A stretch of DNA of 35,366 nt from IMG/VR virus record IMGVR_UViG_3300032093_000430, positions 1 through 35,366 of that record, one strand, 5' to 3'. Below the pieces are notes generated by a model. It saw only the letters and a program-made list of their open reading frames with translations, was not told the origin of the DNA and did no database searches. The translations under genes and the position numbers were made by a program. Position 1 is the stretch's first letter. Each line of letters begins with the position of its first letter. This stretch comes from a virus. This document shows, piece by piece, positions 2,917 through 35,079 of the stretch.

Positions 2917-2919
2917 ACG

Positions 2920-4018: not shown

Positions 4019-4111
4019 TTCGGACTCCTTTCCGGGTGGTTTTGGCATCCTGCTTCCGCCGCCCCCTAGAATCCCCTATCCTCCACTCCAGGTCAAGCCG
4101 AGGTTTTTCAG

Positions 4112-4669
4112 ATGGCAAAGGCTTCCTATCTTGCCCAGGCTGTCGGGTCTGCCGAGGCGGCGGCCATTATGGGCATCCATTTCACGCAGCCGCGTCGGAT
4201 GGTTGAGAAGGGGCTGCTGACGGCCTACCAGCCGCCAATGTCGCTCTACACCGACTCGCCGAGCCGTCGCGTCGCCATTTACGACGGCGGCGAATGTGCG
4301 GCCAACTACGAGGCGTATGACGAGAGGTGCCTCGCCGGAGGCGGCAAGATAAACAGCCGGCCGCGGGAGTGGGTCCACACTCGGCCCGAAGCCCTCCGGC
4401 ACCTGAAGGCCGTCAAGACGCCGATAGCCTTCAAGGACGCCATCGGCATGGCCGAGGCGGCTCAGATTCTTCAAGTCCACGAGTCGTTGATTCCGCGAAT
4501 GGTCGCCAGCGGGAAGATCATCGGCCGGCGGCCGTGGAACCCGCGAGGCGGCGGCGGGCGCATTTACATCCTCTCCCGCGAGTCTTGCCAGGCAAATGTC
4601 CGCGAGATGAAAGCCCGCGAGGCGGCCGGCAAAAAGCCGGGCAGGAAGCGGTCCAGAAAAGTCTCTTGA
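4112..4669 (+). CDS. DNA-binding protein with two MerR/excisionase-like helix-turn-helix units
   Basis: 185 residues with two similar segments: residues about 10-40 (AVGSAEAAAIMGIH ... MVEKGLLTAYQ) and about 108-140 (DAIGMAEAAQILQVH ... MVASGKIIGRR). Each reads as a winged helix of the type that tests a site and then names a residue-specific helix (AEAAxIL...V). The C-terminus is very basic (KKPGRKRSRK). It diverges from the integrase block, the usual place for a lysogeny or excision regulator. Binding one site with two heads would suit a spaced operator. The target is unknown. A weak TAGAAT box at about 4068 may be part of its promoter. Confidence 0.7.
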   Translation: MAKASYLAQAVGSAEAAAIMGIHFTQPRRMVEKGLLTAYQPPMSLYTDSPSRRVAIYDGGECAANYEAYDERCLAGGGKINSRPREWVHTRPEALRHLKAVKTPIAFKDAIGMAEAAQILQVHESLIPRMVASGKIIGRRPWNPRGGGGRIYILSRESCQANVREMKAREAAGKKPGRKRSRKVS

Positions 4670-4695
4670 CCTGTAGCCTCGCCGTCCGATAGAGT
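4666..4695 (+). promoter_or_regulatory. sigma70-type promoter ahead of the SNF2 helicase
   Basis: TTGACC (4666-4671), an 18-base spacer and TAGAGT (4690-4695), 28 bases before the GTG start at 4723. It overlaps the end of the preceding gene, so the replication block can be started independently of the regulator. Confidence 0.6.
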
Positions 4696-4722
4696 CCTCG
4701 CCTAACCAAGGAGAGGACGCCA

Positions 4723-12393: not shown

Positions 12394-12561
12394 ATGCTCG
12401 TCATCACCCGCCGCCGCGGCGAGAAAGTCCAGATCGGGCCAGACATCGAGGTCATGGTCACGCAGGTTCGCGAAGGCGCCGTTCGCCTCGCGATCAAGGC
12501 ACCGCCGGAGACGGTGGTCGTCAGGACGGAGTTGCTTGCTGGCAAGGAGGCTGGGAAGTGA
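12394..12561 (+). CDS. csrA: CsrA/RsmA-family translational regulator
   Basis: 55 residues beginning MLVITRRRGEKVQIG and continuing DIEVMVTQVREGAVRLAIKAPPETVVVRTEL, which matches CsrA from end to end (MLVLTRK.GE...I.I......V.RLGI.AP....V.R.E). CsrA dimers bind ANGGA in 5' leaders, usually at the ribosome-binding site, and block or modify translation. The key positions R44 (VVVRTE) and the L2-T5-R6 strand are present. Ribosome-binding site GGAAGGAG lies upstream. It overlaps the next gene by one base. A phage-borne copy could redirect host metabolism or control the element's own leaders, many of which carry AGAGGAGAG. Confidence 0.9.
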   Translation: MLVITRRRGEKVQIGPDIEVMVTQVREGAVRLAIKAPPETVVVRTELLAGKEAGK

Positions 12562-12707
12562 TGGAACGCCGAGACCTTCTGAAGTTCTTCCCGCTCGCTC
12601 CGCTGGCGTTTCGGGACGGCAAAGGCATCGTCGTCACAGAGCCGCCTGTGTTGCGGGCCGACAAGGAGTGCCGGAAGATCGAGCAGGAGGTGGCAAGCAA
12701 TGGTTGA
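12561..12707 (+). CDS. small protein with twin-arginine-like N-terminus, 48 aa
   Basis: ATG 12561 overlaps the csrA stop (TGATG) and the stop at 12705-12707 lies inside the RtcB start region. The product begins MERRDLLKFFPLAPLAF, which resembles the RRxFLK core of Tat signals but has a very short hydrophobic part. The rest is charged. Its tight position between csrA and rtcB supports translation. Function unknown. Confidence 0.55.
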   Translation: MERRDLLKFFPLAPLAFRDGKGIVVTEPPVLRADKECRKIEQEVASNG

Positions 12708-13884
12708 AGATCGAGCGTATGCCTCATTCGGCCCTGTAGACTCCGGTTCGTCGGAGCAACTTCGCCGATGCCTGGAAGTCTCTGGCGAGGAGTCTCGCGG
12801 CGTTTTGTGCGCAGACCACCACCTTGGCTATGGAATGCCAATCGGCGGCGTGGTCGCCTCGAAGACGCACATCATGCCAGCGGGCGTCGGATACGACATC
12901 GCCTGCGGGAATATGGCCGTCCGCACTGCGATTCTGGCCTCCGACCTCGATGTTTCGTCTGTCATGGACGAGGTTGCTGCGAAGATCAGTTTTGGCGTTG
13001 GCAGGTCAAACGAAGACCCGATTCGCGAGCACCCCGTATTCGACAGGATCGCGTCATGCAGGGTTCCAGTGCAGCGGAGAATGCTGGAACTTGCTCGGTC
13101 TCAGTTAGGCACGGTCGGTAGCGGAAACCACTATGTAGATCTTTTCGAGGACCGCGCCGACGGCCGGCTGTGGATCGGCGTGCATTTCGGCTCGCGAGGA
13201 TTCGGCCACAAGACGGCGACGCACTTCTTGCACGAGGCCGGCAGCACAGACGACTCGATGCACGCGGTCCCCGTTGCCATTCCGATTGGGTCGAACCTTG
13301 CCGAGCAGTACCTGGAAGCGATGGAGGTTGCCGGCGATTATGCCTACGCTGGCCGCGAGTGGGTTGTTGGCAAGGTTCTGTCCATTCTCGGCAATCCTGC
13401 TGTGGACATCAGCGTCCACAACCACCACAACTTTGCGTGGCGGGAGATTCACGACGGCGAGGAGTGGTACGTCACACGCAAAGGCGCAACTCCTGCGTTC
13501 CCAGGCCAGCGCGGATTCATCGGCGGCAGCATGGGCGACGACGCCGTGATCGTCGAAGGCGTCGATTCGCAGGCTTCGAGGGACGCCTTTTACTCCACGG
13601 TGCATGGCGCCGGCCGCGTTATGGGCCGCATGGAGGCTCGCGGCAAGTGGAAGAACGGCCAGTGCGTCCGCGAGCCGCGTGTTGACTGGAGGGCATCGCG
13701 AGGCGCAGTAGTAGGCAAGGGCGTCGAACTTCGCGGTGCCGATGCCGACGAGGCTCCAGAGTGCTACAAGCGGCTGCCGGATGTTCTGGCTCACCACGCA
13801 GGCACGATCACTGTTCTGCACACGCTCCGTCCTGTCGGGGTTGCTATGGCAGGCAAGGAAATCGTGGACCCGTACAAGGACTAG
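12700..13884 (+). CDS. rtcB: RtcB-family RNA ligase
   Basis: 394 residues. Motifs in order: GVGYDIACGN (D66 and C69, metal ligands), GTVGSGNHYVD (137-147), VHFGSRGFGH (161-170, H162), HNHHNFAW (240-247), TRKGATPA (259-266) and VHGAGR (301-306), whose H302 sits at the position that is guanylylated in RtcB. The family seals RNA 2',3'-cyclic phosphate to 5'-OH using GTP and Mn(II). The size fits the shorter RtcB branch found in many phages. The start overlaps the previous gene by eight bases. A likely job is repair of tRNAs or other RNAs cleaved by host toxins. A structured intergenic stretch follows the next small gene. Confidence 0.92.
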   Translation: MVEDRAYASFGPVDSGSSEQLRRCLEVSGEESRGVLCADHHLGYGMPIGGVVASKTHIMPAGVGYDIACGNMAVRTAILASDLDVSSVMDEVAAKISFGVGRSNEDPIREHPVFDRIASCRVPVQRRMLELARSQLGTVGSGNHYVDLFEDRADGRLWIGVHFGSRGFGHKTATHFLHEAGSTDDSMHAVPVAIPIGSNLAEQYLEAMEVAGDYAYAGREWVVGKVLSILGNPAVDISVHNHHNFAWREIHDGEEWYVTRKGATPAFPGQRGFIGGSMGDDAVIVEGVDSQASRDAFYSTVHGAGRVMGRMEARGKWKNGQCVREPRVDWRASRGAVVGKGVELRGADADEAPECYKRLPDVLAHHAGTITVLHTLRPVGVAMAGKEIVDPYKD

Positions 13885-25742: not shown

Positions 25743-26053
25743 AGGACTACGTTCGTCGCCGCGGCGGCCTACGGCTTTCCATCAACGGGGGGCTGCGCGA
25801 CCGCATCGTCGATGAGGTCGTGGCCTCTTGGCCTGCCGACTGCCCCATGGAGCGGCTGGAGGAAGTGGTCCGCGCTCGCGTGACTATGAAAGTCAGGCAG
25901 AAGTATGGGTCGGTGATCGCGACCTTGCTACTTTCTGCCTTTATCAACGTGATTGTGAAGTTGATCGTGGACTGGTGGCGTGAGCGCAACAGTCATCGCG
26001 TTCTCATGCACGGGTGGTCAAGTGCCGCGCAGAATCCCGACGTTCCGTCCTAG
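25706..26053 (+). CDS. C-terminally anchored membrane protein, 115 aa
   Basis: GTG 25706 after AAGGAGG. Basic, soluble first half (RPLKDYVRRRGGLRL) and a membrane span at about residues 78-96 (VIATLLLSAFINVIVKLIV). Overlaps the lipoprotein gene by 37 bases. Unrecognised. Confidence 0.65.
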   Translation: MSDGNVPTYRPLKDYVRRRGGLRLSINGGLRDRIVDEVVASWPADCPMERLEEVVRARVTMKVRQKYGSVIATLLLSAFINVIVKLIVDWWRERNSHRVLMHGWSSAAQNPDVPS

Positions 26054-26333
26054 ATTCGCGTTCCCCCGCAGGGCGCCTGCACGCCCCAGTTCACACGAAC
26101 GGGGGTACGGCTCGGCCGCCTGGCAGCGGGTGCGGCTGGCCGTGATCGCCCGCGACGACGCGACCTGTCGCTCCTGCGGCCTGGTTCTGCACAAGCCCGG
26201 CGACTGCCATGTGGATCACATCCACAGGAAGCCGGTGAACGAGGCCGCGGAGGCCACGCCGCTGTCGGGGCTACAGGTGTTGTGCCGGCGATGCCACGCT
26301 AAGAAGACTGCCGACGAGACTTCCGGCGATTAG
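25980..26333 (+). CDS. HNH endonuclease (packaging-associated type)
   Basis: 117 residues: RLAVIARDDATCRSCG, HVDHIHRK and LCRRCHAKK, with C63xxC66, D79, H80 and C102xxC105-H106. The short basic N-terminus and YGSAAWQRVRLAVIARD resemble the HNH proteins that precede terminase genes in many phages, where they assist genome packaging. No terminase follows here: the coding strand switches and a leftward gene overlaps the stop by 35 bases. The start is uncertain; GTG 25980 overlaps the upstream gene by 74 bases. Confidence 0.85.
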   Translation: MSATVIAFSCTGGQVPRRIPTFRPRFAFPRRAPARPSSHERGYGSAAWQRVRLAVIARDDATCRSCGLVLHKPGDCHVDHIHRKPVNEAAEATPLSGLQVLCRRCHAKKTADETSGD

Positions 26334-26589
26334 CGGCCTTGGTCGCGCCGCCCTGGCTCCCCCACTGCTTCGCCATCTCCGACCGCTTGTCGGAGCCAAA
26401 GGGATAGTAGTGCTTCTTGATCACGGGGATGGCTGACCGGAGGATGAGCCGCCGGCCCAGCACCTCCTGGGTCACGACGGCCCCCTCGTCAGCGGCTCGC
26501 TTGATTGCCCGGTACAACGCCCGCCTGGAGCAGTCCACGACGGCCATCGCCTGGGCAACGGTCAGGAAATCTTGTGTCTCGATCTTCAT
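26299..26589 (-). CDS. helix-turn-helix DNA-binding protein (excisionase/MerR-like), 96 aa
   Basis: ATG 26589 with GGAGTGG upstream. DFLTVAQAMAVVDCSRRALYRAIKRAADEG is a winged-helix/excisionase-like reader, and the tail is lysine- and arginine-rich (ATKAANRRKSRR). It is the last gene of the leftward array and converges on the HNH gene. It could be an excisionase or a repressor of the array. Confidence 0.74.
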   Translation of the reverse strand: MKIETQDFLTVAQAMAVVDCSRRALYRAIKRAADEGAVVTQEVLGRRLILRSAIPVIKKHYYPFGSDKRSEMAKQWGSQGGATKAANRRKSRRQSS

Positions 26590-26840
26590 CGCACCACTCC
26601 TATCACGCTGTCGCCTAGTTCAGTCAGCGCCGCGGCCACGCGCCGCAGCGGTCGCTCCTGGGGTTGTGTCACTACGATCGGTGTCGGCGCCGGTTGCCAC
26701 GCACCGGGCGCCGGTTGCCACGCACCGGGTTGTGCAGGCCACGACGGCACCGCCGGCCGCTCCGAGAAGCCTTCTCGGAGCAGCACGACCACGACAACGA
26801 TCAGCACCGCCCTCCAGGTGTCACGCACGATGCCGATCAT
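26586..26840 (-). CDS. small membrane protein with proline-rich tail
   Basis: 84 residues. A hydrophobic anchor (VLIVVVVVLL, residues 12-21) is followed by PAVPSWPAQPGAWQPAPGAWQPAPTP, where PGAWQPA is repeated twice; the DNA repeat is GCACCGGGCGCCGGTTGCCAC. The distal half resembles a helix. ATGA overlaps on both sides. Possibly a membrane-anchored tether; unknown function. Confidence 0.6.
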   Translation of the reverse strand: MIGIVRDTWRAVLIVVVVVLLREGFSERPAVPSWPAQPGAWQPAPGAWQPAPTPIVVTQPQERPLRRVAAALTELGDSVIGVVR

Positions 26841-27121
26841 ACGCTCACCACACGCGGCTCGGCAAGTTCGTCGGCCTGCCGCATGAGGCTTTTGGCCGCC
26901 GCGCGGATGGTGGCTGCGGCGGCCTCGCGTGCCTCCTGCCGGGTCTGGAAAATCGCCTCGGCAAAGTACAGTGTCCTTGCCACGCCGTCCTCGCCGCGGA
27001 CGATGCTGTCCGCGGGCAGGACAAACTCCACCTCACGCAGATGCACGACAGCCTTGGCGGCCTCGAAGTACACCGCACAGGTTACAACCTTGTCTCCAGC
27101 CTTGTATTCCATCTCTGTCAT
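26837..27121 (-). CDS. hypothetical protein of the leftward array, 94 aa
   Basis: ATG 27121, with AAGGAGG directly upstream and a start-associated element 9-25 bases upstream. First half beta-like (GDKVVTCAVYFEAAKAVVHLREVEFVLPADS), second half a long alanine-rich helix. No family recognised. Confidence 0.7.
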   Translation of the reverse strand: MTEMEYKAGDKVVTCAVYFEAAKAVVHLREVEFVLPADSIVRGEDGVARTLYFAEAIFQTRQEAREAAAATIRAAAKSLMRQADELAEPRVVSV

Positions 27122-27130: not shown

Positions 27131-27146
27131 GTTTCTACACTCGGGG
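27131..27146 (-). repeat. start-associated element, gene 26837-27121
   Basis: On the transcribed strand CCCCGAGTGTAGAAAC, lying immediately upstream of the AAGGAGG ribosome-binding site. One copy. Confidence 0.85.
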
Positions 27147-27148
27147 TC

Positions 27149-27183
27149 AGTAGCCTACACAAACTATCGGCCAGTAGCCTACT
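27149..27183 (-). promoter_or_regulatory. two TAGGCTACT dyads, 24 bp apart
   Basis: Transcribed strand: AGTAGGCTACT (27173-27183) and TGTAGGCTACT (27149-27159). The first begins with the TAG stop of the upstream gene. Same element as at 12356 and 15905. Operator or promoter part; function unknown. Confidence 0.45.
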
Positions 27184-27706
27184 GGTCTTTACGCTTCCTC
27201 TTCTCTCGACGTTTCGCCGCTCGTCGAGCCATCAGTTCATCGACGGCCGCCCGTGCCACGCGGGCCTGTGCCTCGCGGAGGTCTTTCTCGTCCGCGAGGC
27301 CGCGGTCGAGGAGCATCTGAAGCCAGCCGGCTTCGTAGGGGGTGATGCGGTTGGTCATTTGGTCAACCTCCGTTTCGCCGGTCGGATCATCTGCCCGCCG
27401 CACCACAGCGGCTTTTTCGAGCCATCCGCTGTACCGGGCGCGGTTCTTCCTGCCGTGGTACGAATCAAGCATCGCAACTGCCTCGCGCCGCGTTGCGGCC
27501 TGCCCGGCAAAGTTCCAGGCCGCCGTATAGACCTTGATCACGCCTGGACGGCTCACAACTGCGTACCCAATGTGACAGGCAGATCGGTCGCCCTTTGCCT
27601 TGAGGTAGTAAGTGTCCCCGTCGTGCGGAACCTCCACGGCCATGCAAGTCGCCATTGTTCGCTGCCTTGTGAACGCTATGGAGAATGCGTTCTTCGGTTT
27701 CGTCAT
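27179..27706 (-). CDS. hypothetical protein, apparent fusion of two array genes
   Basis: 175 residues from ATG 27706 (GAGGAGAGG upstream). Residues 1-116 contain MTKPKNAFSIAFTRQR and a DGDTYYLKAKGD beta unit. At residue 117 an internal ATG (27358) is preceded by GGAGG and by a degenerate start-associated element (GTTTCGCCGGTCGG at about 27373-27386), all in frame. So the coding sequence reads straight through what looks like a gene boundary; the C-terminal 58-59 residues (MTNRITPYEAGWLQMLLDRGL ... RRAAKRREKRKRK) may also be made alone. Confidence 0.65.
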   Translation of the reverse strand: MTKPKNAFSIAFTRQRTMATCMAVEVPHDGDTYYLKAKGDRSACHIGYAVVSRPGVIKVYTAAWNFAGQAATRREAVAMLDSYHGRKNRARYSGWLEKAAVVRRADDPTGETEVDQMTNRITPYEAGWLQMLLDRGLADEKDLREAQARVARAAVDELMARRAAKRREKRKRKDQ

Positions 27707-27721
27707 CACGTTCCTCTCCTC

Positions 27722-27753
27722 GTTTCGCCGCTCGGGGTTTCGACGCTCCGGGG
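27722..27753 (-). repeat. tandem start-associated elements, gene 27179-27706
   Basis: Two head-to-tail copies: + strand GTTTCGCCGCTCGGGG (27722-27737) and GTTTCGACGCTCCGGGG (27737-27753), sharing one G. Confidence 0.85.
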
Positions 27754-27779
27754 TGGCGGCGGGCCGCCGGGGCGCGGGT

Positions 27780-28007
27780 TCACCAACGGATGACAGGCTC
27801 GACACGAACCGTCGTTTCGACCTTCAGGCCGAAGCATAGGCCGCACCCTTCGCACGTTTCGTCGTGCCGGTCAGCGTCCTGCAATACTTCGGCGGGAGCA
27901 TCGTGAATCGTGTAGTGCGACCCACTGCAATCGCCACCCTTGCTTTGGAAGTAGGTAGTCTTGCCGCACCTTGGACACGGCACCTCAACGCAGTCGTACA
28001 TTCCCAT
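27780..28007 (-). CDS. zinc-ribbon protein (MGMYDCVEVPCPRCG family), 75 aa
   Basis: ATG 28007 with AAAAAGGAG upstream. CPRCG ... FQSKGGDC and CEGCGLCFGL give two Cys pairs of a zinc ribbon. The opening MGMYDCVEVPCPRCGK-T-FQSK is a small phage/environmental family I recognise, of unknown role. It is the one array gene whose leader has no start-associated element. Confidence 0.8.
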   Translation of the reverse strand: MGMYDCVEVPCPRCGKTTYFQSKGGDCSGSHYTIHDAPAEVLQDADRHDETCEGCGLCFGLKVETTVRVEPVIRW

Positions 28008-28021
28008 TGTCGTTCTCCTTT

Positions 28022-28297
28022 TTATTGTGCTGCCTGACTGTCAATCCACTGCCGCCACTGCTCTCTCGCCCTCGCCGTGTCCTCTGTCCAGTCGCGTGAC
28101 GGCGCCCCCCAGCAGCACCTCTCGGTCAATTCGTCGCGCCTCGCCTGCCTGTCGGCACGCAATTTGTCGATCTCATCGGCCATGAGCCGCATCAGCCTGC
28201 TGACCGCAGGCTCGCCGGCTAGGTTGTCGGCGTAAATGCGGCCCGCCGCCGCAACGTCGTCCCAGTCGATGCCGTACTCTGGGTCAAGTCTTGCCAC
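28022..28297 (-). CDS. hypothetical protein, 91 aa
   Basis: GTG 28297 after AGAGGAGAGAGACG. Helical and charged, with DWDDVAAAGRIYADNLAGEPAVSRLMRLMADEIDKLRADRQ. The tail has several tryptophans. No known family. Confidence 0.68.
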   Translation of the reverse strand: MARLDPEYGIDWDDVAAAGRIYADNLAGEPAVSRLMRLMADEIDKLRADRQARRDELTERCCWGAPSRDWTEDTARAREQWRQWIDSQAAQ

Positions 28298-28312
28298 CGT
28301 CTCTCTCCTCTG

Positions 28313-28328
28313 GTTTCGCCGCTCGGGG
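28313..28328 (-). repeat. start-associated element, gene 28022-28297
   Basis: One copy (+ strand GTTTCGCCGCTCGGGG), followed on the transcribed strand by CAGAGGAGAGAGACG and the start codon. That leader is nearly identical to those of the next two genes. Confidence 0.85.
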
Positions 28329-28346
28329 CCGGCTGGGATTGGTCAT

Positions 28347-28742
28347 TCACCTGTTCTTGAAGTACCCGCCAGCCGACCGCGGCACTTGCCGCAGATAGTC
28401 CCACAAGCCGTCGAGCGTAGTCTTGATCTCGTCGCCCAGAAACTGCTCGCCGTCTGGCGTCTTGATGGTGTACGAGATCGTCACGCCGTGCGCGGTGACC
28501 TTCGCCCAGGTTTCGCCGTTCGGGTTGCCCGGATCGTCGATGTCCACCGTGAAGAACGGTTCCTCCTCGGGATCATAATCATCCGCCTGCGGCTGCGGCC
28601 CTGCCGACTCACCGCAGATCACATCCTCGAACGGCAGGAGCGTAGCCCGCGCCATGACGAGGCCGGGAGCGAACTCCCGGCAAAACTTCGTGGCCTCGTT
28701 GATACGGTCGGCCACGGCCCTCTTCTTCTTGCTCATCTTCAT
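28347..28742 (-). CDS. hypothetical protein, 131 aa
   Basis: ATG 28742 with AGAGGAGAGACG upstream. Basic start (KMSKKKRAVADRINEATKF), a very acidic middle (DDYDPEEEPF), then a beta-rich part (TVDIDDPGNPNGETWAKVTAHGVTISYTI). No enzymatic motif. The acidic stretch could mimic nucleic acid, as in some phage anti-defence proteins, but this is only suggestive. Confidence 0.68.
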   Translation of the reverse strand: MKMSKKKRAVADRINEATKFCREFAPGLVMARATLLPFEDVICGESAGPQPQADDYDPEEEPFFTVDIDDPGNPNGETWAKVTAHGVTISYTIKTPDGEQFLGDEIKTTLDGLWDYLRQVPRSAGGYFKNR

Positions 28743-28755
28743 CGTCTCTCCTCTG

Positions 28756-28794
28756 GTTTCGCCGGCCGGGGCCGGCTGGGGTTTCTACGGACGG
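28756..28794 (-). repeat. start-associated elements, gene 28347-28742
   Basis: GTTTCGCCGGCCGGGG (28756-28771) and a diverged copy GTTTCTACGGACGG (28781-28794) on the + strand. Confidence 0.8.
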
Positions 28795-28798
28795 CCCA

Positions 28799-29233
28799 CT
28801 ACCAACGGTAGTGGCAACCGTTCATCGCCATGTAGTCATCGGTGCTATCCACACCGCCGTCGATCATCTCGGCCTCGATCTCCTCGCGGATGGATGCGGG
28901 CAACTCATCGCCGCGGACGAGCCGCCAGCAGTGTCCCTGGCCTCCGCTGGCGTCCTCCTCGACATTCCGGCCACAGACGAGGCCGGCGACCGCCAGGGCT
29001 TCGTCGGCATCGCTGCTCTCCCTCCACGCTGCCACGGCGGCTTCGGCCTCACGGGTGGCCGCTCGGGCCTGCTCCGCGAGCGCCTCGGCCTGCTCCGCTG
29101 TCATCGGCTCGCCGGCCGTGTCCATCGGGGCCGCCAGCCATCCTGCCGCCGTCAGGTGGACGTAGCCGTCCAGGTCGCGGGGCAGGCTGCGCCCGTAATC
29201 ACCATACACGCTGTAGTGATATGCATCGGCCAT
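28799..29233 (-). CDS. hypothetical protein, 144 aa
   Basis: ATG 29233 is chosen because AGAGGAGAG lies just upstream; the frame stays open further. Aromatic start (MADAYHYSVYGDYGRSL), a long alanine/glutamate helix (residues 48-72) and an acidic C-terminal part with EEIEAEMIDGG. Unknown. Confidence 0.68.
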   Translation of the reverse strand: MADAYHYSVYGDYGRSLPRDLDGYVHLTAAGWLAAPMDTAGEPMTAEQAEALAEQARAATREAEAAVAAWRESSDADEALAVAGLVCGRNVEEDASGGQGHCWRLVRGDELPASIREEIEAEMIDGGVDSTDDYMAMNGCHYRW

Positions 29234-29248
29234 CTTCGCTCTCCTCTG

Positions 29249-29296
29249 GTTTCGCCGGCCGGGGCCGGCTGGGGTTTGGGTTTCTACGATCCGGGG
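29249..29296 (-). repeat. start-associated elements, gene 28799-29233
   Basis: GTTTCGCCGGCCGGGG (29249-29264) and GTTTCTACGATCCGGGG (29280-29296). About 30 bases of leader around the first copy are identical to the leader of gene 28347-28742, indicating a recent copy event. Confidence 0.85.
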
Positions 29297-29297
29297 G

Positions 29298-29540
29298 TCA
29301 CGCACTGGCTGCGGCAAATCCTTCGGCCGCCAGCCAAGTCTCCTCGGGGATGTTCGGCCGCGTCCGTTGGTTCTCCGTCACCCGCACATGCTCGGCCGCC
29401 GCGAACATCGCCTCACGCACGGTCGGGTAGTTGCCGACGAGCCGGCCGTCGCAGCCGACAGAGATGTAGCCGCTCGTCGGGATCATCTTGAACTCGACCG
29501 TGTGATTCAGAACCTTGCAACTGGTGTACTTGTTCATCAT
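29298..29540 (-). CDS. hypothetical protein, 80 aa
   Basis: Starts at the double ATG (29540 or 29537) after GAGGAGAGAG. Small beta domain (KVLNHTVEFKMIPTSGYISVGCDGRLVG) followed by an alanine-rich helix. This looks like a compact phage accessory domain; no name. Confidence 0.68.
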   Translation of the reverse strand: MMNKYTSCKVLNHTVEFKMIPTSGYISVGCDGRLVGNYPTVREAMFAAAEHVRVTENQRTRPNIPEETWLAAEGFAAASA

Positions 29541-29559
29541 CTCTCTCCTCATCTCTCGG

Positions 29560-29622
29560 GTTTCCACTCTCGGGGCCACGACGGCCCGCTCCACGCCCCC
29601 GCGCCGGTTTCGCCGGCCGGGG
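29560..29622 (-). repeat. start-associated elements, gene 29298-29540
   Basis: GTTTCCACTCTCGGGG (29560-29575) close to the start, and GTTTCGCCGGCCGGGG (29607-29622) further upstream. Confidence 0.82.
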
Positions 29623-29638
29623 GTCGGGGGCGGGTCGG

Positions 29639-30232
29639 CTAGGCTTTCGCCTTCTTCTTCCGCATGTGCCGGCGGGCGGCTCGCCGCAGATCGGCTTCGA
29701 CGGCTGCCTCGGCCCTCGTCTCTTCATGGTCGAGCGTGAACGTCACGCGGGCGGTGCCGCGGTAGACCTTCACCTCGGGAATCGCCAGGAGCGATTCCCA
29801 TCCATCGCGGAATCGGAGGTTGCCGGCCGCTCCGTTGAGCCGCTCGACCTCCAGGTATTCGGCCACACGCTGCGGCAGATCGCGCAGCGGCACGACCTTG
29901 CCGCCCCGCCGCACCGCGACCAGGGCAGCGCCGAGGATCGACAGGCGGAAGGCCGCGGTGTAACGCTCCTTCCGTTTCGTCGTGCGGGGGACGTTGAACT
30001 CGCCCAGCGGGTCGCAGCCGGTCGCGGCAACGTGCCGCGAGTAGTCGAGCCACGCAGCCTCCTGCTCTCCGATTGTCGGAACGTCGCCGGCATCGCATCC
30101 GTCGTGATTGCCGTCCGAATCGCAGACGCTGTAGGTGCCATCGCCATACGCCCAGTAGTGGGCGAGGTGCCAGCCGACAGGGCAGTCCTTCTCGCCGCAG
30201 GCTTCCGGCACGGTGCAGATAATGTCTTCCAT
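29639..30232 (-). CDS. hypothetical protein with cysteine-rich N-terminus, 197 aa
   Basis: ATG 30232 after GAGGAGAGAGACG. Residues 1-60 hold five cysteines (TVPEACGEKDCPVGW ... SVCDSDGNHDGCDAG). The remainder is helical with SILGAALVAVRRGGK and ends in a basic tail (RRAARRHMRKKKAKA), so nucleic-acid binding is plausible. No family recognised. Confidence 0.7.
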   Translation of the reverse strand: MEDIICTVPEACGEKDCPVGWHLAHYWAYGDGTYSVCDSDGNHDGCDAGDVPTIGEQEAAWLDYSRHVAATGCDPLGEFNVPRTTKRKERYTAAFRLSILGAALVAVRRGGKVVPLRDLPQRVAEYLEVERLNGAAGNLRFRDGWESLLAIPEVKVYRGTARVTFTLDHEETRAEAAVEADLRRAARRHMRKKKAKA

Positions 30233-30245
30233 CGTCTCTCTCCTC

Positions 30246-30268
30246 GTTTCTGGTTCCCCCGCTCGGGG
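30246..30268 (-). repeat. diverged start-associated element, gene 29639-30232
   Basis: GTTTC is followed by an insertion before CGCTCGGGG; the transcribed strand reads CCCCCGAGCGGGGGAACCAGAAAC. A second GAAAC lies about 15 bases upstream. Confidence 0.6.
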
Positions 30269-30292
30269 GTCTGTAGTTTCGCTCAGTCCACG

Positions 30293-30315
30293 CCCGCCGG
30301 CAACGTGCCGGCGGG
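30293..30315 (-). terminator. hairpin CCCGCCGGCA-ACG-TGCCGGCGGG
   Basis: A perfect 10-bp stem with 3-base loop, seven bases after the stop of gene 30322-30594. No T run, so termination is uncertain. The core GCCGGCA-ACG-TGCCGGC recurs at 31991-32007 after another array gene, and partly at 31441-31463. Confidence 0.5.
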
Positions 30316-30321
30316 GGATCG

Positions 30322-30594
30322 TCAGGCGGGGCAGCAGTCGCCCCAGTATTCCACGAACGCGATGATCTCGTCGTTCGCCAGCCCCTCGGCCACAAGCCGG
30401 CGAGCCGACTCCAGCGTGATGCAGTCGTGCGAGACGAGCAGGCCGCCAAGGGCGGGGTAGTCATGCTCGCAGTAGCCGATCCAATCGAGTTGGTGGCGGC
30501 ACTCAACGTCATCCAGGTGGTCGAACGTCTCAACCGACAGCGGCACTCGGTTCGCCTCGGCGCAGTCCATGTAAAACGCTTTCACCGCACCCAT
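30322..30594 (-). CDS. hypothetical protein, 90 aa
   Basis: ATG 30594 after GAGAGGTGAGACG. Acidic, with conserved-looking CRHQLDWIGYCEHDYPALGG and EIIAFVEYWGDCCPA. Several cysteines and aromatics; no named motif. Transcription may start from a promoter 76 bases upstream (30670-30698). Confidence 0.68.
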   Translation of the reverse strand: MGAVKAFYMDCAEANRVPLSVETFDHLDDVECRHQLDWIGYCEHDYPALGGLLVSHDCITLESARRLVAEGLANDEIIAFVEYWGDCCPA

Positions 30595-30607
30595 CGTCTC
30601 ACCTCTC

Positions 30608-30638
30608 GTTTCTACTCTCGGGGTTTCTATGCTCGGGG
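30608..30638 (-). repeat. tandem start-associated elements, exact 15-bp period, gene 30322-30594
   Basis: GTTTCTACTCTCGGGG (30608-30623) and GTTTCTATGCTCGGGG (30623-30638), sharing a G. The cleanest head-to-tail pair in the array. Confidence 0.88.
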
Positions 30639-30669
30639 CCACGCTGGCCGCGATGTCGTGTTCAGAAGC

Positions 30670-30698
30670 ATACTAAGCATCGGCACGGCGAGTGTCCA
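30670..30698 (-). promoter_or_regulatory. sigma70-type promoter within the leftward array
   Basis: Transcribed strand TGGACA (30693-30698), 17-base spacer, TAGTAT (30670-30675). The spacer ends CCGTGCCGATGCT, which also occurs in the promoter at 33632-33659. Confidence 0.6.
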
Positions 30699-31002
30699 GC
30701 CCACAATCTTTCCGCCGGGGTTTCGCCCCGACCCGTTTCACCCGGTACGGTCTGGCGACGAGGCCCGGCACCCGCGACCGCCGCCGGCCGGCAACGTGCA
30801 GCACCGCATAGCCGCCTGTGCCGTAGGCCAGGAGGGTCACCCGCCCCCGTGCCGTCTGCTCGACGGCCAGGAGGGTGAACGTGCCGCGGGCGGCCATCGC
30901 CACCCGCTCGCCGCTGGCGAGCCGGTAGTAGGGGCCGCCGGCCACGCGGAAGCGGTCGCCAGGGTGGAGCGTGACGCGGGGGCTGATCTGGTATCCGGTC
31001 AT
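30673..31002 (-). CDS. small beta-barrel-like phage protein (PGDRFRVAGGPYY family), 109 aa
   Basis: ATG 31002 after GGCAGGAGG; overlaps the upstream gene by four bases. LHPGDRFRVAGGPYYRLASGERVAMAARGTFTLLAV and VARPYRVKRV form a run of beta strands. I recognise the PGDRF-V-GGPY...G.F.FL pattern from phages and their hosts; function not established, an SH3/Tudor-like RNA- or DNA-binding fold is possible. Confidence 0.74.
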   Translation of the reverse strand: MTGYQISPRVTLHPGDRFRVAGGPYYRLASGERVAMAARGTFTLLAVEQTARGRVTLLAYGTGGYAVLHVAGRRRSRVPGLVARPYRVKRVGAKPRRKDCGLDTRRADA

Positions 31003-31403
31003 GCGGCACCTCCTGCCGCCTCGGCGGCTGCGGTCACCTGGGCGGCGAAGTCTCGGACGATGGCGGCAACGTCCATCTGCCGCAGTTGCTCGTTCGCGAT
31101 GCTGTCGAGGTGCGCATCGTTTCGGTATCCGTCATCGACACAGTCGATCCCGCCCAAGACGTATGCTCGGCGGATGACGAGGCCGCCGACTTTCACGGCG
31201 ATCCACATATCCCAGAAATGCCACTCGTCGCGCTCCCAGGCCGCGATATCGGCAGCGTTGTAGACCTCTGGGTCAGGAATCTCGCTCGGGTCGCTGGTTA
31301 GGCCAGCGATCACGACCAAGCCGCTGCCGTAGTCCTTCGCGATCTCGTACCCGCCGCTCGCGAAACTGGTATCGAACTGGTTCTCGGTGTTCGTCGCATT
31401 CAT
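30999..31403 (-). CDS. hypothetical protein, 134 aa
   Basis: ATG 31403 directly after AACGAGAGG. Begins MNATNTENQFDTSF, close to the start MNATKTNTVLVD of the next gene upstream. Middle part is aromatic (WERDEWHFWDMWIAVKVGGLVIRRAYVLGG), end is an alanine-rich helix. Unknown. Confidence 0.68.
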   Translation of the reverse strand: MNATNTENQFDTSFASGGYEIAKDYGSGLVVIAGLTSDPSEIPDPEVYNAADIAAWERDEWHFWDMWIAVKVGGLVIRRAYVLGGIDCVDDGYRNDAHLDSIANEQLRQMDVAAIVRDFAAQVTAAAEAAGGAA

Positions 31404-31409
31404 CCTCTC

Positions 31410-31450
31410 GTTCCTCCACTCGGGGTATCCACTCGTTCCGCCGGCCGGGG
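31410..31450 (-). repeat. two start-associated elements, gene 30999-31403
   Basis: Variants with GTTCC in place of GTTTC: GTTCCTCCACTCGGGG (31410-31425) and GTTCCGCCGGCCGGGG (31435-31450). Both carry the same substitution, suggesting local copying. Confidence 0.75.
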
Positions 31451-31478
31451 CAACGTGCCGCCGGCCGGGCATCGTCAC

Positions 31479-31712
31479 TCACTCTGGCGACCGCCAGTTC
31501 TCCTCCTCCATGTCCATCGTGCCGCTGGGCAGCGGCGTCATGTTGCTGAGTTCGCCGGCCACGGTCGTGTCGTATGCCTTCGCCATGCCAAGGAACTCCA
31601 GCATCGCGAGCCGCCGCACCTCGGCCGGCGAGGTGCCGGCCGGCACCTCCAGGGTCACGCTCGACCGCAGGTAAACGTCCACCAGCACCGTGTTCGTCTT
31701 CGTCGCATTCAT
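31479..31712 (-). CDS. hypothetical protein, 77 aa
   Basis: ATG 31712. VLVDVYLRSSVTLEVPAGTSPAEVRRLAMLEF suggests two strands and a helix, a layout common in small phage proteins. The codons for EVPAGTS contain a perfect 20-bp palindrome (31630-31649). The ribosome-binding site is weak; GGAG lies 12 bases away. Confidence 0.66.
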   Translation of the reverse strand: MNATKTNTVLVDVYLRSSVTLEVPAGTSPAEVRRLAMLEFLGMAKAYDTTVAGELSNMTPLPSGTMDMEEENWRSPE

Positions 31713-31713
31713 C

Positions 31714-31754
31714 GTTTCCACGCTCCAGGGGTTCTCGGGTTTCCATCCTCGGGG
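31714..31754 (-). repeat. two start-associated elements, gene 31479-31712
   Basis: GTTTCCACGCTCCAGGGG (31714-31731) directly abutting the start codon region and GTTTCCATCCTCGGGG (31739-31754). Confidence 0.8.
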
Positions 31755-31759
31755 GCCGG

Positions 31760-31951
31760 CTACTCGTCCTGCTCGACGCAAAACGGCTCGACCATGAAGT
31801 CGATGCCAGCCTCCGGGTTGTCGAGCATCTCGCGAAACTTCGCGACGGCCGCGGCCTTGATCACCTCCAGGCCGGCGTCGGTGCTGGCGTCGGTGCCACG
31901 CGGCACCGACACGCACACTCCCGTTTCCATCCACACATCGAACTTGGGCAT
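31760..31951 (-). CDS. hypothetical protein, 63 aa
   Basis: ATG 31951 after ACGAGAG. MPKFDVWMETGVCVSVPRGTDASTDAGLEVIKAAA is similar in layout to the previous protein (strand, strand, PxGT, helix), so the two may be distant paralogues. The codons for SVPRGTDAS form a 9-bp perfect hairpin (31889-31910). Confidence 0.64.
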   Translation of the reverse strand: MPKFDVWMETGVCVSVPRGTDASTDAGLEVIKAAAVAKFREMLDNPEAGIDFMVEPFCVEQDE

Positions 31952-31956
31952 CTCTC

Positions 31957-31973
31957 GTTTCCTCATTCCGGGG
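31957..31973 (-). repeat. start-associated element, gene 31760-31951
   Basis: GTTTCCTCATTCCGGGG on the + strand, six bases from the start codon; followed upstream by the GCCGGCA-ACG-TGCCGGC hairpin (31991-32007). Confidence 0.78.
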
Positions 31974-32028
31974 GTCATCGATCCGCGGGAGCCGGCAACG
32001 TGCCGGCCCCCGTTGGCACGGGCGGGGG

Positions 32029-32292
32029 TCAATCGACGTTGTTCATCGCCAGCCAATCGCCCCAATCCATGCCCTCGGGGCATGGGCCGGGGTAGCCGGG
32101 GCCGCCGGAACACTGGAGCCATTCGTCGGCGGTTGTGGTCGGCTCGCCGGCCACCTCCACGATTTCGTAGTGGCAGAAGCACTCCATGTCGTGGACCCAC
32201 TCGGCCACGCATTCGGCCTGCTCGCGGCTCGGGAAGGTTTCGCAGGCCAGGGCGCTGTCGATCTCGGGGCATTCAATGCGGTAACTGGTCAT
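32029..32292 (-). CDS. hypothetical acidic protein, 87 aa
   Basis: ATG 32292. Beta strand then helix at the start (TSYRIECPEIDSALACETFPSREQAECVAEWVHD), a pattern of small phage domains, then a cysteine- and proline-containing tail ending MDWGDWLAMNNVD. No classical ribosome-binding site: the start-associated element itself sits 3 bases from the ATG (GAGAGGAAACGCG). Confidence 0.68.
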   Translation of the reverse strand: MTSYRIECPEIDSALACETFPSREQAECVAEWVHDMECFCHYEIVEVAGEPTTTADEWLQCSGGPGYPGPCPEGMDWGDWLAMNNVD

Positions 32293-32295
32293 CGC

Positions 32296-32311
32296 GTTTC
32301 CTCTCTCGGGG
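32296..32311 (-). repeat. start-associated element, gene 32029-32292
   Basis: GTTTCCTCTCTCGGGG. The transcribed copy, CCCCGAGAGAGGAAAC, contains GAGAGGA that may double as the ribosome-binding site. Confidence 0.82.
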
Positions 32312-32346
32312 TTTGGTGGTTGGGGGAGTCTCGACTTGTGGCCTTC

Positions 32347-32982
32347 TCAGCGTGGCATCGGCCCCAGGCCGCAGGCGAGGCCGACCGCCTCCGCGACCAT
32401 GCGCTCGCTGGGCAGGGGGGCGTGGCCCATGACTGCCCGGTACAGACGGCGGTTCATCGAATGCCGGCCGATCCCCTCCAACAGGATCGACCGCCGCAGT
32501 TCTGCGGGGATCGTGCGCCACTGCCATTTGGCCGACAGAGCCCGCCGGATGCGACGGCAGACCGCCATCACCGGCTCGGCGCAGTGCATGCGATCAACGA
32601 CCCGCGCGACCCCCTCGGCGTCGGTGCTGGTGAAATTCATCACGGGCAGGCGACCGACCGCGCCGATCATGCCATGCACCGGAACCGCGATGCGGTAGGT
32701 CATCTCCAGCCCGTCAGGCAGCGACCAGGGCCGCGGGGCATTCGCGGCGGCCCGGCGGGCTGCGGCCTTGATGAGCCGCACCCGCTCGGCCTCCGCGGCA
32801 TCGCTGCCGGGGATCGGCCGCAGTTTCGCGGCCGACGCCTTGATCGTGCGCGCCGTGTCCTGCGTCAGGCAGGTGAACCGCCGGCCGGAGCCGCCGCGGT
32901 CGCTGACCACCTTCACCAGGGCGAGCCGGTCACCGACGCGGCACTGGTAGGTCGATCCGATCTGAACGTCTTTTGCGAGCAT
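32347..32982 (-). CDS. hypothetical protein, 211 aa
   Basis: Start set at ATG 32982 (eight bases from GGAG); a second ATG six bases upstream is too close to it. First 60 residues are beta-rich (IGSTYQCRVGDRLALVKVVSDRG ... RFTCLTQDT). The rest is helical and basic (RRIRRALSAKWQW, EGIGRHSMNRRLYRAVMGH). One of the longer array proteins; no family recognised. Confidence 0.7.
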   Translation of the reverse strand: MLAKDVQIGSTYQCRVGDRLALVKVVSDRGGSGRRFTCLTQDTARTIKASAAKLRPIPGSDAAEAERVRLIKAAARRAAANAPRPWSLPDGLEMTYRIAVPVHGMIGAVGRLPVMNFTSTDAEGVARVVDRMHCAEPVMAVCRRIRRALSAKWQWRTIPAELRRSILLEGIGRHSMNRRLYRAVMGHAPLPSERMVAEAVGLACGLGPMPR

Positions 32983-33008
32983 GATCATCTCTCCAGGGAT
33001 TGTGGCCG

Positions 33009-33024
33009 GTTTCGCCGGCCGGGG
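33009..33024 (-). repeat. start-associated element, gene 32347-32982
   Basis: GTTTCGCCGGCCGGGG, identical to copies at 28756, 29249 and 29607. It lies 27 bases from the start codon, further than usual. Confidence 0.82.
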
Positions 33025-33049
33025 TTGTAGTGTCGTGGAGCCTATAACG

Positions 33050-33295
33050 TCAAACACCAGCCGCGGCGGCCCGAAGGGACGCCACTGCACACTCCAAGCC
33101 ATTCCGCCCGTAGTAGGCGCCGCGGTGCCGACCGTCCGCGTCATCCGCCTGCCACGGGCAGGCGCCGCGGTACTTCTCCAGTGTGCCGATGATCGCATTG
33201 TGCAGCCGCACGACATAGCGGGCCTGGCTGTTTCGGCCAGGGCCGGCTTTCGCATACATCGTCACCTCGCATCCGTTCACGATCTGCGTTTTCAT
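33050..33295 (-). CDS. hypothetical protein, 81 aa
   Basis: ATG 33295. Beta-strand rich (MKTQIVNGCEVTMYAKAGPG, ARYVVRLHNAIIGTLEKYRG) with a C-terminal helix (LECAVASLRAAAAG). Leader GAGGAAACGCGACG. Unknown. Confidence 0.67.
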   Translation of the reverse strand: MKTQIVNGCEVTMYAKAGPGRNSQARYVVRLHNAIIGTLEKYRGACPWQADDADGRHRGAYYGRNGLECAVASLRAAAAGV

Positions 33296-33301
33296 CGTCG
33301 C

Positions 33302-33332
33302 GTTTCCTCGTTCGGGGTTTCGATGGCCGGGG
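33302..33332 (-). repeat. tandem start-associated elements, gene 33050-33295
   Basis: GTTTCCTCGTTCGGGG (33302-33317) and GTTTCGATGGCCGGGG (33317-33332), exact 15-bp period. Confidence 0.86.
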
Positions 33333-33335
33333 GGG

Positions 33336-33575
33336 TCAGATGCCGTCGATCAGCCGCTGGACGGTCATGCGGGCGCTCCAGGCCGCATGCTCGACTGCCT
33401 CCAGGTGCTGCGTCAACTGCTCCAGGCTGGCGGCTCCGTTGACCGCCGTCAGGATCGCGGACTGGATCGCATCCCGCGTGGCCTGCGGCAGGGGTTCCTG
33501 CCGGCGGCGCTCCAGTCGGTGTTCCCGGTCGATGAAGATGGCATTAAGGGCGTCGTGCATGGTCGGGGTGGTCAT
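33336..33575 (-). CDS. hypothetical helical protein, 79 aa
   Basis: ATG 33575. Helical throughout: MHDALNAIFIDREHRLERRRQEP, DAIQSAILTAVNGAASLEQLTQHLEAVEHAAW. Its leader (element plus ACGCG) is the same as that of gene 33050-33295. A promoter lies 57 bases upstream. Unknown function. Confidence 0.67.
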   Translation of the reverse strand: MTTPTMHDALNAIFIDREHRLERRRQEPLPQATRDAIQSAILTAVNGAASLEQLTQHLEAVEHAAWSARMTVQRLIDGI

Positions 33576-33578
33576 CGC

Positions 33579-33610
33579 GTTTCCTCGTTCGGGGTTTCCA
33601 TGATCCGGGG
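33579..33610 (-). repeat. tandem start-associated elements, gene 33336-33575
   Basis: GTTTCCTCGTTCGGGG (33579-33594) and GTTTCCATGATCCGGGG (33594-33610). The first copy is identical to the one at 33302. Confidence 0.86.
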
Positions 33611-33631
33611 CGACCGTCGCCCGCTGTGACA

Positions 33632-33659
33632 AAAGTAGCATCGGCACGGACTAAGTCAA
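33632..33659 (-). promoter_or_regulatory. sigma70-type promoter within the leftward array
   Basis: Transcribed strand TTGACT (33654-33659), 16-base spacer, TACTTT (33632-33637). Spacer contains CCGTGCCGATGC, as in the promoter at 30670-30698. It would serve gene 33336-33575. Confidence 0.55.
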
Positions 33660-33679
33660 ACCTAAAATCTTTTTCTCGG

Positions 33680-33781
33680 GTTTCGCGGGGGTTTTCACGA
33701 TCCGGGGCTGGGTGGACAGTTGGTTTCGTGAGAATCGGGGTTGCTAGGGGCGGGGGTTAGTTCTCGTTTCCACGGCCGGGG
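33680..33781 (-). repeat. four diverged start-associated elements between genes
   Basis: GTTTCGCGGGG (33680), GTTTTCACGATCCGGGG (33691-33707), GTTTCGTGAGAATCGGGG (33723-33740) and GTTTCCACGGCCGGGG (33766-33781). The last overlaps the final codons (PGRGNEN) of gene 33757-33972, so an element has become coding. Confidence 0.7.
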
Positions 33782-33972
33782 CGGATGTCTTTAACGTCCG
33801 CATGAATCGTCAACGTGTTCGCATCGTCGCCGGCCGGCTCCAGGGAGAGTTTCACCCGCCCGGTTTCAGTGTCGATGTCATATGCGATGCCTACAGTTTT
33901 TCCGATCCACGCCTGCTCCAGGTGATCGAGCGCCAGCGCCAGCCGCTGCGCCATTGTTTCTGTCGGTTTCAT
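33757..33972 (-). CDS. hypothetical protein, 71 aa
   Basis: ATG 33972. KPTETMAQRLALALDHLEQAWIGKTVGIAYDIDTETGRVKLSLEP reads helix-strand-strand. Its leader is the seven-copy repeat tract, and its C-terminus is encoded by a further copy of the element. Weak ribosome-binding site (CCGGAGAAACCATCG). Unknown function. Confidence 0.66.
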   Translation of the reverse strand: MKPTETMAQRLALALDHLEQAWIGKTVGIAYDIDTETGRVKLSLEPAGDDANTLTIHADVKDIRPGRGNEN

Positions 33973-33977
33973 CGATG

Positions 33978-34101
33978 GTTTCTCCGGGTTTCTACGGTCG
34001 GGGTTTCTGTGGTCGGGGTTCCGGTTTCCACGCTCCGGGGCCGCCGGTTTCCACGGTCGGGCATCGTATCGTTTCCACGGTCGGGGTTTCTATTGTCGCG
34101 G
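33978..34101 (-). repeat. iteron-like tract: seven start-associated elements
   Basis: Consecutive + strand copies: GTTTCTCCGGG (33978), GTTTCTACGGTCGGGG (33988), GTTTCTGTGGTCGGGG (34003), GTTTCCACGCTCCGGGG (34024), GTTTCCACGGTCGGG (34047), GTTTCCACGGTCGGGG (34071), GTTTCTATTGTCGCGG (34086). Spacing 10-24 bp, all in one orientation. The density suggests a multi-site operator or replication origin iterons. Confidence 0.85.
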
Positions 34102-34273
34102 CCGGCGGGTCGATCTCCTCGGGCTGGTCGGCGCCCTCGCGAGACCGGCACCAGCGGCGCACCAGGGCGGCCGGCGGGTCGATCTCCTCGGGCTGGTCGG
34201 CGCCCTCGCGAGACCGGCACCAGCGGCGCACCAGGGCGGCCGGCGGGTCGATCTCCTCGGGCTGGTCGGCGCC
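34101..34273. repeat. 69-bp perfect tandem direct repeat, 2.5 copies
   Basis: Units begin at 34101, 34170 and 34239; the first two are identical and the third matches for 35 bases, ending at the stop codon of the DUF7227-like gene. The minus strand keeps a frame open through all copies, reading GADQPEEIDPPAALVRRWCRSRE as a 23-residue repeat, but no convincing start or ribosome-binding site is seen, so coding is unproved. With the iteron tract it fills the gap 33973-34272. Confidence 0.88.
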
Positions 34274-35079
34274 TAGTTCAAAATCGGCAGCACCGGCGCC
34301 CCGGAAAGCACCGGATTGGACTTCGCCGCATGCATCGTGCCGAACCCACCATGGGTTCCGATCACGACCGAGTGTGGGAGCCGGGCGCCGACCGCCCGGG
34401 CGCCGGCGCCCTTGCAGGCCTTGCAGGAATTACAATCGGCTCGCCATCCGCCCTCGGCCGACGCGGGGCAGACGATTTCACCGGGCGCCGGTGTCGCATC
34501 ATTCGAGGCCCGAAAGTATCGCCACCCCCTCGCGTTCGCGTCGGCGCCCTCGGCCACACTGTGGACGCTCGCCATGAAATAGGCGCGAAACCCTTGAAAC
34601 TCCGGGCGCCGGTGCTGGTGAGTGTATCCAGTCCACCCATCGGCAATCGCGGAAAGATGCGACACGATGGCGAGCGGGATTAGCACCGGCTCGCCATAGG
34701 CGCCCCAGCGGATGCGGCGCCCCACGAAGTATCGGTCGTGCTGCGCCGCATCGTATGCGACATAGCGCCCACGATGGTAAGCCTCGTGGACGGCTCGCGG
34801 GCCTTGCCCGAGGTTGACGTAGCACGTTCGCGCCTTGCCCATGAGACCGCGCAGCGGGCAATCTCCGCACACTGTCGCATCGTCGCCCGTTTTGAGGGTT
34901 TCGGTCGGTTTCGCGAGGGTATCGGCCAGTATGTAGACCTGGAGCATATCCCCTGTCTTGGAGTTGGACGAACGCGACAGGCACGCGATCACGACGAACG
35001 GCTCGCCGGTGAACGGCGAGCGCCCCCGATGCAAAATCACTCCAAGGGGGCGATGCGCGGCCTTTTGGATGCGGGGCAT
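34273..35079 (-). CDS. DUF7227-like conserved phage/plasmid protein
   Basis: 268 residues from ATG 35079 (AAAGGATTTACC upstream). Conserved blocks: TGDDATVCGDCPLRG with a cysteine pair, CYVNLGQGPRAVHEAYHRGRY, YGEPVLIPL, DGWTGYTHQH, FMASVHSVAEG, GWRYFR and a cysteine cluster ICPAS...CNSCKACKG ending VIGTHGG. This combination is shared by a family in phages and plasmids, often in early or plasmid-maintenance regions. The cysteines suggest metal binding. It is the first gene of the leftward array. Function unknown; its 3' end abuts the 69-bp repeats, and the last residues (VLPILN) may reflect a rearranged C-terminus. Confidence 0.82.
   Translation of the reverse strand: MPRIQKAAHRPLGVILHRGRSPFTGEPFVVIACLSRSSNSKTGDMLQVYILADTLAKPTETLKTGDDATVCGDCPLRGLMGKARTCYVNLGQGPRAVHEAYHRGRYVAYDAAQHDRYFVGRRIRWGAYGEPVLIPLAIVSHLSAIADGWTGYTHQHRRPEFQGFRAYFMASVHSVAEGADANARGWRYFRASNDATPAPGEIVCPASAEGGWRADCNSCKACKGAGARAVGARLPHSVVIGTHGGFGTMHAAKSNPVLSGAPVLPILN

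Follow-up and report, generated by a model that had tools for sequence, protein, structure and literature searches.

Oriented arrays of short sites linked to gene starts are known mainly from mycobacteriophages. Cluster A phages (L5, TipsytheTRex) carry more than 20 short asymmetric stoperators, which are oriented with transcription and placed at promoters and in short intergenic gaps; their motif has genome-specific variants, and the regulator that recognizes it is a monomer with two DNA-binding domains (PMC9283540, PMC6550527). The start-associated sequences (SAS) and extended SAS (ESAS) of cluster K phages are short and asymmetric, and they lie in one orientation a few nucleotides (nt) before the starts of non-structural genes only; they are not found in host genomes and their function is unknown (PMC3203893, PMC12699233). 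A single factor of phage T4, RegA, acts on about 30 mRNAs at sites that overlap the start codon or lie just 5′ of it (PMC3014915), and TraN of plasmid pIP501 is a monomeric transcriptional repressor with two winged helix-turn-helix (wHTH) motifs, which binds upstream of promoters (PMC10877727). Here we describe an independent system, likely of phages of planctomycetes: a 16-bp element with the consensus CCCCGAnCGTGGAAAC, repeated along a leftward array of small genes in the IMG/VR virus record IMGVR_UViG_3300032093_000430, which was analyzed over its whole length of 35,366 bp (the window).

The element resembles cluster A stoperators in the number and layout of its sites (36–40 oriented, asymmetric copies in the window, at a promoter and between genes), and its genome-specific base at position 7 recalls the stoperator dialects (PMC6550527). 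However, stoperators are 13 bp long, differ in sequence and are distributed genome-wide, whereas the copies described here are confined to one array, with none elsewhere in the window, and are start-anchored and often tandem. The putative regulator is a duplicated Xis/MerR-type wHTH protein instead of an HTH plus Stoperator domain protein. With cluster K SAS the element shares a single orientation, proximity to starts (at broader distances) and restriction to non-structural genes. Unlike SAS (GGGATAGGAGCCC, 11–19 copies, with a fixed internal Shine-Dalgarno sequence, SD), it contains an SD in start-proximal copies only, most copies being upstream of a separate SD; furthermore, its copies cluster at promoters and 27 of them carry the start codon. 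Many copies overlap AUG or sit just 5′ of it, a position like that of RegA operators, but RegA sites show no clear conservation, while the element is strongly conserved and also present at promoters; no RegA homologue was seen here, without a dedicated search. TraN is the best DNA-binding structural match of the candidate protein 4112-4669, which also has two wHTH units, but TraN has few sites, in a plasmid transfer operon, and shows no sign of many oriented ones. The element is a variant distinct from stoperators, SAS and RegA sites and a member of none of these groups. An earlier note on this DNA (the original prediction) had rightly drawn a parallel in logic with cluster K SAS of different sequence; it did not mention cluster A operators and stoperators, the closer precedent in layout.

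The pattern given in that note, CCCCGRN{5,6}GRAAC, matches the window 28 times, whereas 0.33 matches are expected (standard deviation 0.59; maximum of 3 in 100 shuffles). It is confirmed, but CCCCGAnCGTGGAAAC together with a 17-bp form, with an extra G after CCCCG, describes the element better. Twenty-seven of the 28 matches lie on the minus strand between 27131 and 34086, and the remaining one is a plus-strand stray at 9657. A position weight matrix (PWM) trained on 15 contigs distinguished 36 array-strand copies at ≥14 bits, all inside the array, with none elsewhere and one on the opposite strand; at ≥12 bits there are 40, again with none elsewhere and one on the opposite strand, in good agreement with the roughly 35 copies counted originally. 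The single opposite-strand match is a chance one. Near-matches extend to ~26.0 kb (26693-26730, 26089-26105 and 26000-26016). A few copies are intragenic. For 17 of 19 array genes, a copy in non-coding DNA is found no more than 150 bp from the gene start, as expected from the claim that nearly every small gene is preceded by one. Two invariant blocks, CCCCG and GAAAC, with centers 11–12 bp apart, flank a variable core, in which the base at position 7 is genome-specific (z = 6.9). The spacing between copies is bimodal: the predicted tandem period of 15–16 bp is present, but a second class of 21–25 bp is commoner across relatives.

No match to the window array was found by blastn among isolated phages. 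A scan for the tandem form yielded 13 viral contigs with arrays of 5–24 strict one-strand copies and a 14th (G011) with eight; about 10 further contigs, with 16–49 copies each, were found through the protein family of 30673-31002, and four more through the tandem-wHTH protein described below. At least 25 related virus contigs carry the element, and about 20–40 copies are usual in this family of uncultured phages. In the 15 contigs, 500 copies (≥12 bits) are on the array strand versus 13 on the other, in support of the gene orientation claimed for the window. Arrays are limited to one small-gene block of 5–12 kb per contig, and no element was found at structural genes (terminase, portal, protease and capsid matches) or at replication genes of the opposite strand. 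Orthologous array genes of three families retain the element in 7/7, 6/6 and 5/5 cases. Copies are not as frequent inside coding DNA as outside it, they do not occur equally in both orientations, and relatives with diverged flanking genes retain them, all of which speaks for the original prediction. Strict copies are absent from L001-L029, the relatives of protein 34273-35079.

In GTDB species genomes the tandem pattern matched 25 stretches, none of them an array, and in a planctomycete genome the hits were divided 50/46 between the strands, which equals background. A host-encoded element was rejected on these grounds; the scans proposed earlier, of related phages and a planctomycete genome, indicate that the arrays are phage-specific. 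One array protein has homologues in 4 of the 392 planctomycete genomes searched, with no equivalent search of other phyla. A planctomycete is the probable host, although this is a lead, not a proof. The element can serve as a sequence signature for recognizing this phage group in metagenomes.

Gene starts were taken from a simple in-house gene caller, and G007 and G005, in which it made errors, were excluded from the gap statistics. Among intergenic gaps of 60–220 bp, 144 of 159 contain the element, and in 133 of these 144 the nearest copy is ≤30 nt from the start; copies closer to a start outnumber those closer to a stop by 177:65. Copies were classed as distal (11–60 nt from the start), proximal (≤10 nt) or overlapping the start codon. 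A separate SD follows 154 of the 169 distal copies (91%), whereas GAGG or GGAG appears within the variable positions of 43/56 proximal versus 6/169 distal copies, counts that ignore relatedness. In all 27 start-overlapping copies, ATG or GTG occupies positions 9–11 of the 16-mer or 10–12 of the 17-mer. Where genes overlap at ATGA without a gap, several relatives carry the element in frame directly after the start (MT-PTVET...); this form is absent from the window, G005 and G010.

The array promoter of the window (33632-33659, minus strand, as are the second promoter, the terminal array gene and all element copies of the window located below), TTGACT-N16-TACTTT with TTTTAGG ahead of it, is supported by conservation. 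A TTTTAGGnTTGAC promoter occurs in the window, G003, G005, G008, G014 and L187, while G010 and G012 have a TTGACN promoter with a 16-bp spacer; a sigma70-type promoter (TTTTAGGnTTGAC-N16-TAnnnT or close forms) is conserved at the second transcription unit of eight contigs. Element copies lie upstream of this promoter, and two more between it and the first start. One copy (33691-33707, 23.8 bits) is ~30 bp upstream of the −35 box, as in G003, G005, G008 and G014, and a tandem pair (33594-33610 and 33579-33594; 24.7 and 23.4 bits), with GAGG in the proximal copy, forms part of the leader of gene 33336-33575. A second internal promoter, TGGACA-N17-TAGTAT (30670-30698), was recognized by its sequence, and a comparable one precedes the orthologous gene in G012. 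Of the three promoters in the original prediction, 33632 and 30670 are backed by conservation and 35140 is weak.

A sister lineage (L203, G435, G436 and G441) is linked to these phages by a diverged homologue of an array protein, or by the shared tandem-wHTH protein and neighboring genes. It has a variant element, GACCC(C)G-n5/6-GCAAA. The forms GACCCCGGTGTAGCAAA or GACCCGTCCGATGCAAA are repeated in 17-bp tandem copies, three exact ones in G435 and G436 and seven in G441 (five identical); a sigma54-type promoter, TGGCAC-N5-TTGCA or GTGCA, follows immediately downstream. In L203, about six variant copies form a looser set before TGGCACGGCCTTTGCA. The genes upstream of the variant cluster in G436 are divergent, so this cluster is probably not transcribed; no other observation argues as strongly that the copies linked to promoters, at least, function as DNA. 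The element had been described as mostly 5′ leader; this is correct in part, but several copies are upstream of the array promoter and the sister cluster is upstream of a sigma54-type promoter. Sigma54-type promoters of this form (TGGCAC-N5-TTGCA/GTGCA) were observed in the early arrays of L203 (128 and 1804), L268 (158), L269 (~3247) and L370 (~289). To our knowledge, such promoters are unusual in phage early arrays.

The candidate regulator of the element is encoded at 4112-4669 on the plus strand. This 185-aa protein contains an internal tandem duplication of an HTH_17/excisionase-type wHTH domain, and its candidacy is based on duplication, co-occurrence and predicted structure. The AlphaFold model comprises two wHTH units (mean pLDDT 83), and the best DNA-binding matches in Foldseek are TraN (probability 1.00, E 0.016) and Xis of phage Pukovnik (0.99). 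Every element-bearing record that covers the replication module encodes the protein (12 records), and so do three records of the sister lineage that have the variant element; it is not found in the element-lacking relatives G024-G028. Nineteen records were fetched with it; element arrays occur in four, the very ones in which the array-end HTH protein has a strong match, and the remaining ones seem to lack this end of the genome. No repressor with HTH plus Stoperator domains was named by Pfam or PHROGs among the scanned proteins.

The original prediction had named two array regulators, this protein and the product of the terminal array gene (26299-26589), and had also suggested CsrA. The terminal gene encodes a wHTH protein, with a long additional helix in the AlphaFold model, and is the most conserved gene of the array (12/15 contigs); it is present in element-bearing relatives and absent from L203 and L205-L209. 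A scan with this single protein found nothing. It co-occurs with the element but was rejected as its binder, its recognition helix being variable (16–47% identity to the window protein, two invariant residues). Because this helix varies while the element does not, 4112-4669 fits better. CsrA, present in 8/15 contigs, was also rejected: its ANGGA motif is absent from most copies, the tail ATGG (AUGGA) occurring in 10/169 distal copies and position 11 being G in ~53%. The csrA gene of the window (12394-12561) adjoins a gene for an RtcB-type RNA ligase (12700-13884).

We hypothesize, with a probability of roughly 45%, that the element is an oriented, asymmetric DNA binding site, operator- or stoperator-like, for a phage-encoded regulator, most likely 4112-4669. 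The shared regulator postulated originally is supported as a reading, its binding to the element being predicted. One wHTH unit would recognize CCCCG, and its partner would contact GAAAC on the same side of the DNA, a helical turn further on; the distance of 11–12 bp between the block centers would match the needs of two wHTH domains of one chain. The clusters at and near the array promoter would be operators, and the single or paired copies at gene starts would affect transcription passing through the array, like cluster A stoperators, so that one factor could switch or tune the whole array. We infer that 4112-4669 binds the element, as a repressor and not as an activator, and that copies close to starts exert their effect on transcription. 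A DNA site is favored by the orientation, the promoter clusters, the probably untranscribed sister-lineage copies, the two-domain protein and the base at position 7.

Several points weigh against this hypothesis. The start anchoring and the embedded SDs and start codons speak for a site in mRNA, similar to SAS or RegA operators; a DNA site has no need to lie on an SD, on a start codon or after ATGA, yet copies are found there. The variable center is free to differ, so near-start copies can take up an SD or ATG, which would reconcile the DNA and RNA evidence, but the start anchoring itself is left unexplained by this account. Co-occurrence of 4112-4669 with the element may only mark the lineage, and the position-7 dialect can arise by copying within a genome. 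None of the Foldseek E-values is strong (≥0.005), and low-probability KH proteins rank first. Spacings of 21–25 bp are flat, with no helical phasing seen. The stoperator component of the hypothesis depends mostly on the main lineage, since genes of the sister lineage are tightly packed and few copies there are linked to starts. It is conceivable, though less likely than not, that a single 16-bp site combines the roles of promoter operator, roadblock and SD/start-embedded control over ~20 genes, read by a duplicated Xis/MerR-type wHTH monomer, with sister lineages keeping site and protein and exchanging the sigma70-type for a sigma54-type promoter. The two-domain candidate, the natural sister variants and the copies that embed an SD or start codon make the DNA-or-RNA question testable.

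Control at the RNA level is the close rival of this hypothesis, quite possible if below even odds. The element would then be single-stranded in mRNA at the translation start, where an RNA-binding factor would block or help the 30S subunit at ~20 genes, in a SAS-like position and with RegA-like logic. Proximity to starts (133/144 gaps; 177:65), SDs embedded in proximal copies (43/56 versus 6/169), start codons in all 27 overlapping copies, the in-frame copies of the MT-PTVET genes and the single orientation are all consistent with it, but clusters are also found upstream of promoters, including the probably untranscribed sister-lineage DNA, and an SD or start codon may simply not be tolerated at any other position of the consensus. 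Moreover, the consensus folds no better than shuffled sequences (z ~0), only some subsets (CCCCnnnnGGGG and GGCCGGCG) form stems, no Rfam match was found for the element, and the motif of CsrA, the sole RNA-binding candidate, is missing.

It is unlikely that the element is a gene-junction cassette, a repeat kept mainly for recombination and spread of small genes, with little regulation. The variable content of the small-gene array, a 15-bp unit inserted in frame at one gene start in some relatives only, and a dialect consistent with copying would suit such a cassette; strict orientation, start anchoring, conservation at orthologous starts (7/7, 6/6, 5/5), promoter clusters and the lack of copies at other gene junctions of the genome argue against it. 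That each copy is a promoter or an extended ribosome-binding site is very improbable in spite of its place upstream of nearly every array gene and GAGG in proximal copies, since a separate SD follows 91% of distal copies, 0–10 nt to the start leave no space for a −10 box and leader (extracytoplasmic function (ECF)/sigma and T7-like promoters were rejected likewise), the real promoters are separate and non-array genes lack the element.

The array begins with a cluster of five copies (34071-34086, 34047-34062, 34024-34040, 34003-34018 and 33988-34003; 17–26 bits), and multi-copy head clusters are also present in G001, G003, G008, G012 and G014. Directly before the cluster, at 34098-34273, there are long GC-rich tandem repeats with a 69-bp unit; GC-rich repeats of other sequence and matching layout occur at the array heads of G004, G008, L268, L269 and L370 (1-130), and these head repeats are possibly an origin or terminus. 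A further copy (33766-33781, 22.8 bits) lies near the 3′ end of gene 33757-33972. Between the cluster and the array promoter, at 33710-33742, a conserved TTCTCACnnnnCCAAnTGTCC was distinguished, also in G003, G005, G008, G012 and G014; TGTCCACC within this region resembles a DnaA box.

Further along the array, the PWM identified a tandem pair (33302-33332) before gene 33050-33295, a copy of the GGCCGGCG hairpin form (33009-33024) before gene 32347-32982, whose orthologues carry the element in 5/5 cases, a copy with GAGG (32296-32311) 3 nt before gene 32029-32292, and a 17-bp copy (31957-31973) 5 nt before gene 31760-31951. Two copies each precede genes 31479-31712 (31739-31755 and 31714-31730; together 31714-31755) and 30999-31403 (31410-31450, 25 bp apart). 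The tandem pair at 30608-30638 belongs to gene 30322-30594, of the family with elements in 7/7 orthologues. Gene 29639-30232 is preceded by CCCCGAGCGGGGGAAC (30253-30268), with a perfect CCCC/GGGG stem; this copy and similar ones in G003, G007, G008, G009, G010 and L198 have, unlike the others, a perfect CCCC-nnnn-GGGG stem with a variable loop. Two copies (29607-29622 and 29560-29575; 29560-29622) lie before gene 29298-29540 (6/6 orthologues) and two (29249-29296) before gene 28799-29233, followed by single copies before gene 28347-28742 (28756-28771) and the GTG-start gene 28022-28297 (28313-28328), a tandem pair (27722-27753) before gene 27179-27706 and a copy (27131-27146) before gene 26837-27112. 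Two weaker copies of the GTGGCAAC form, with a 21-bp period, are located at 26693-26730, upstream of the terminal HTH gene.

A recurring palindrome-like GGCACGTTGCC is located in intergenic DNA 3′ of array stop codons (32000, 31460 and 30320), with GGCGCGTTGCC in relatives. The distant relative L206 has, at 900-5650, its own promoter cassette, CCCCTTGCAATGCACCGacatCGGTGCTATACTTGGGGC, before many array genes; this is a TTGCAA/TATACT promoter with a palindrome between the boxes, near-identical from copy to copy. In place of the element, L205 carries a 20-nt CGATCGGCTTGTAGTTCTGG-like sequence at several array stop codons, and both L205 and L208 have GC-rich hairpins in the gaps after array genes.

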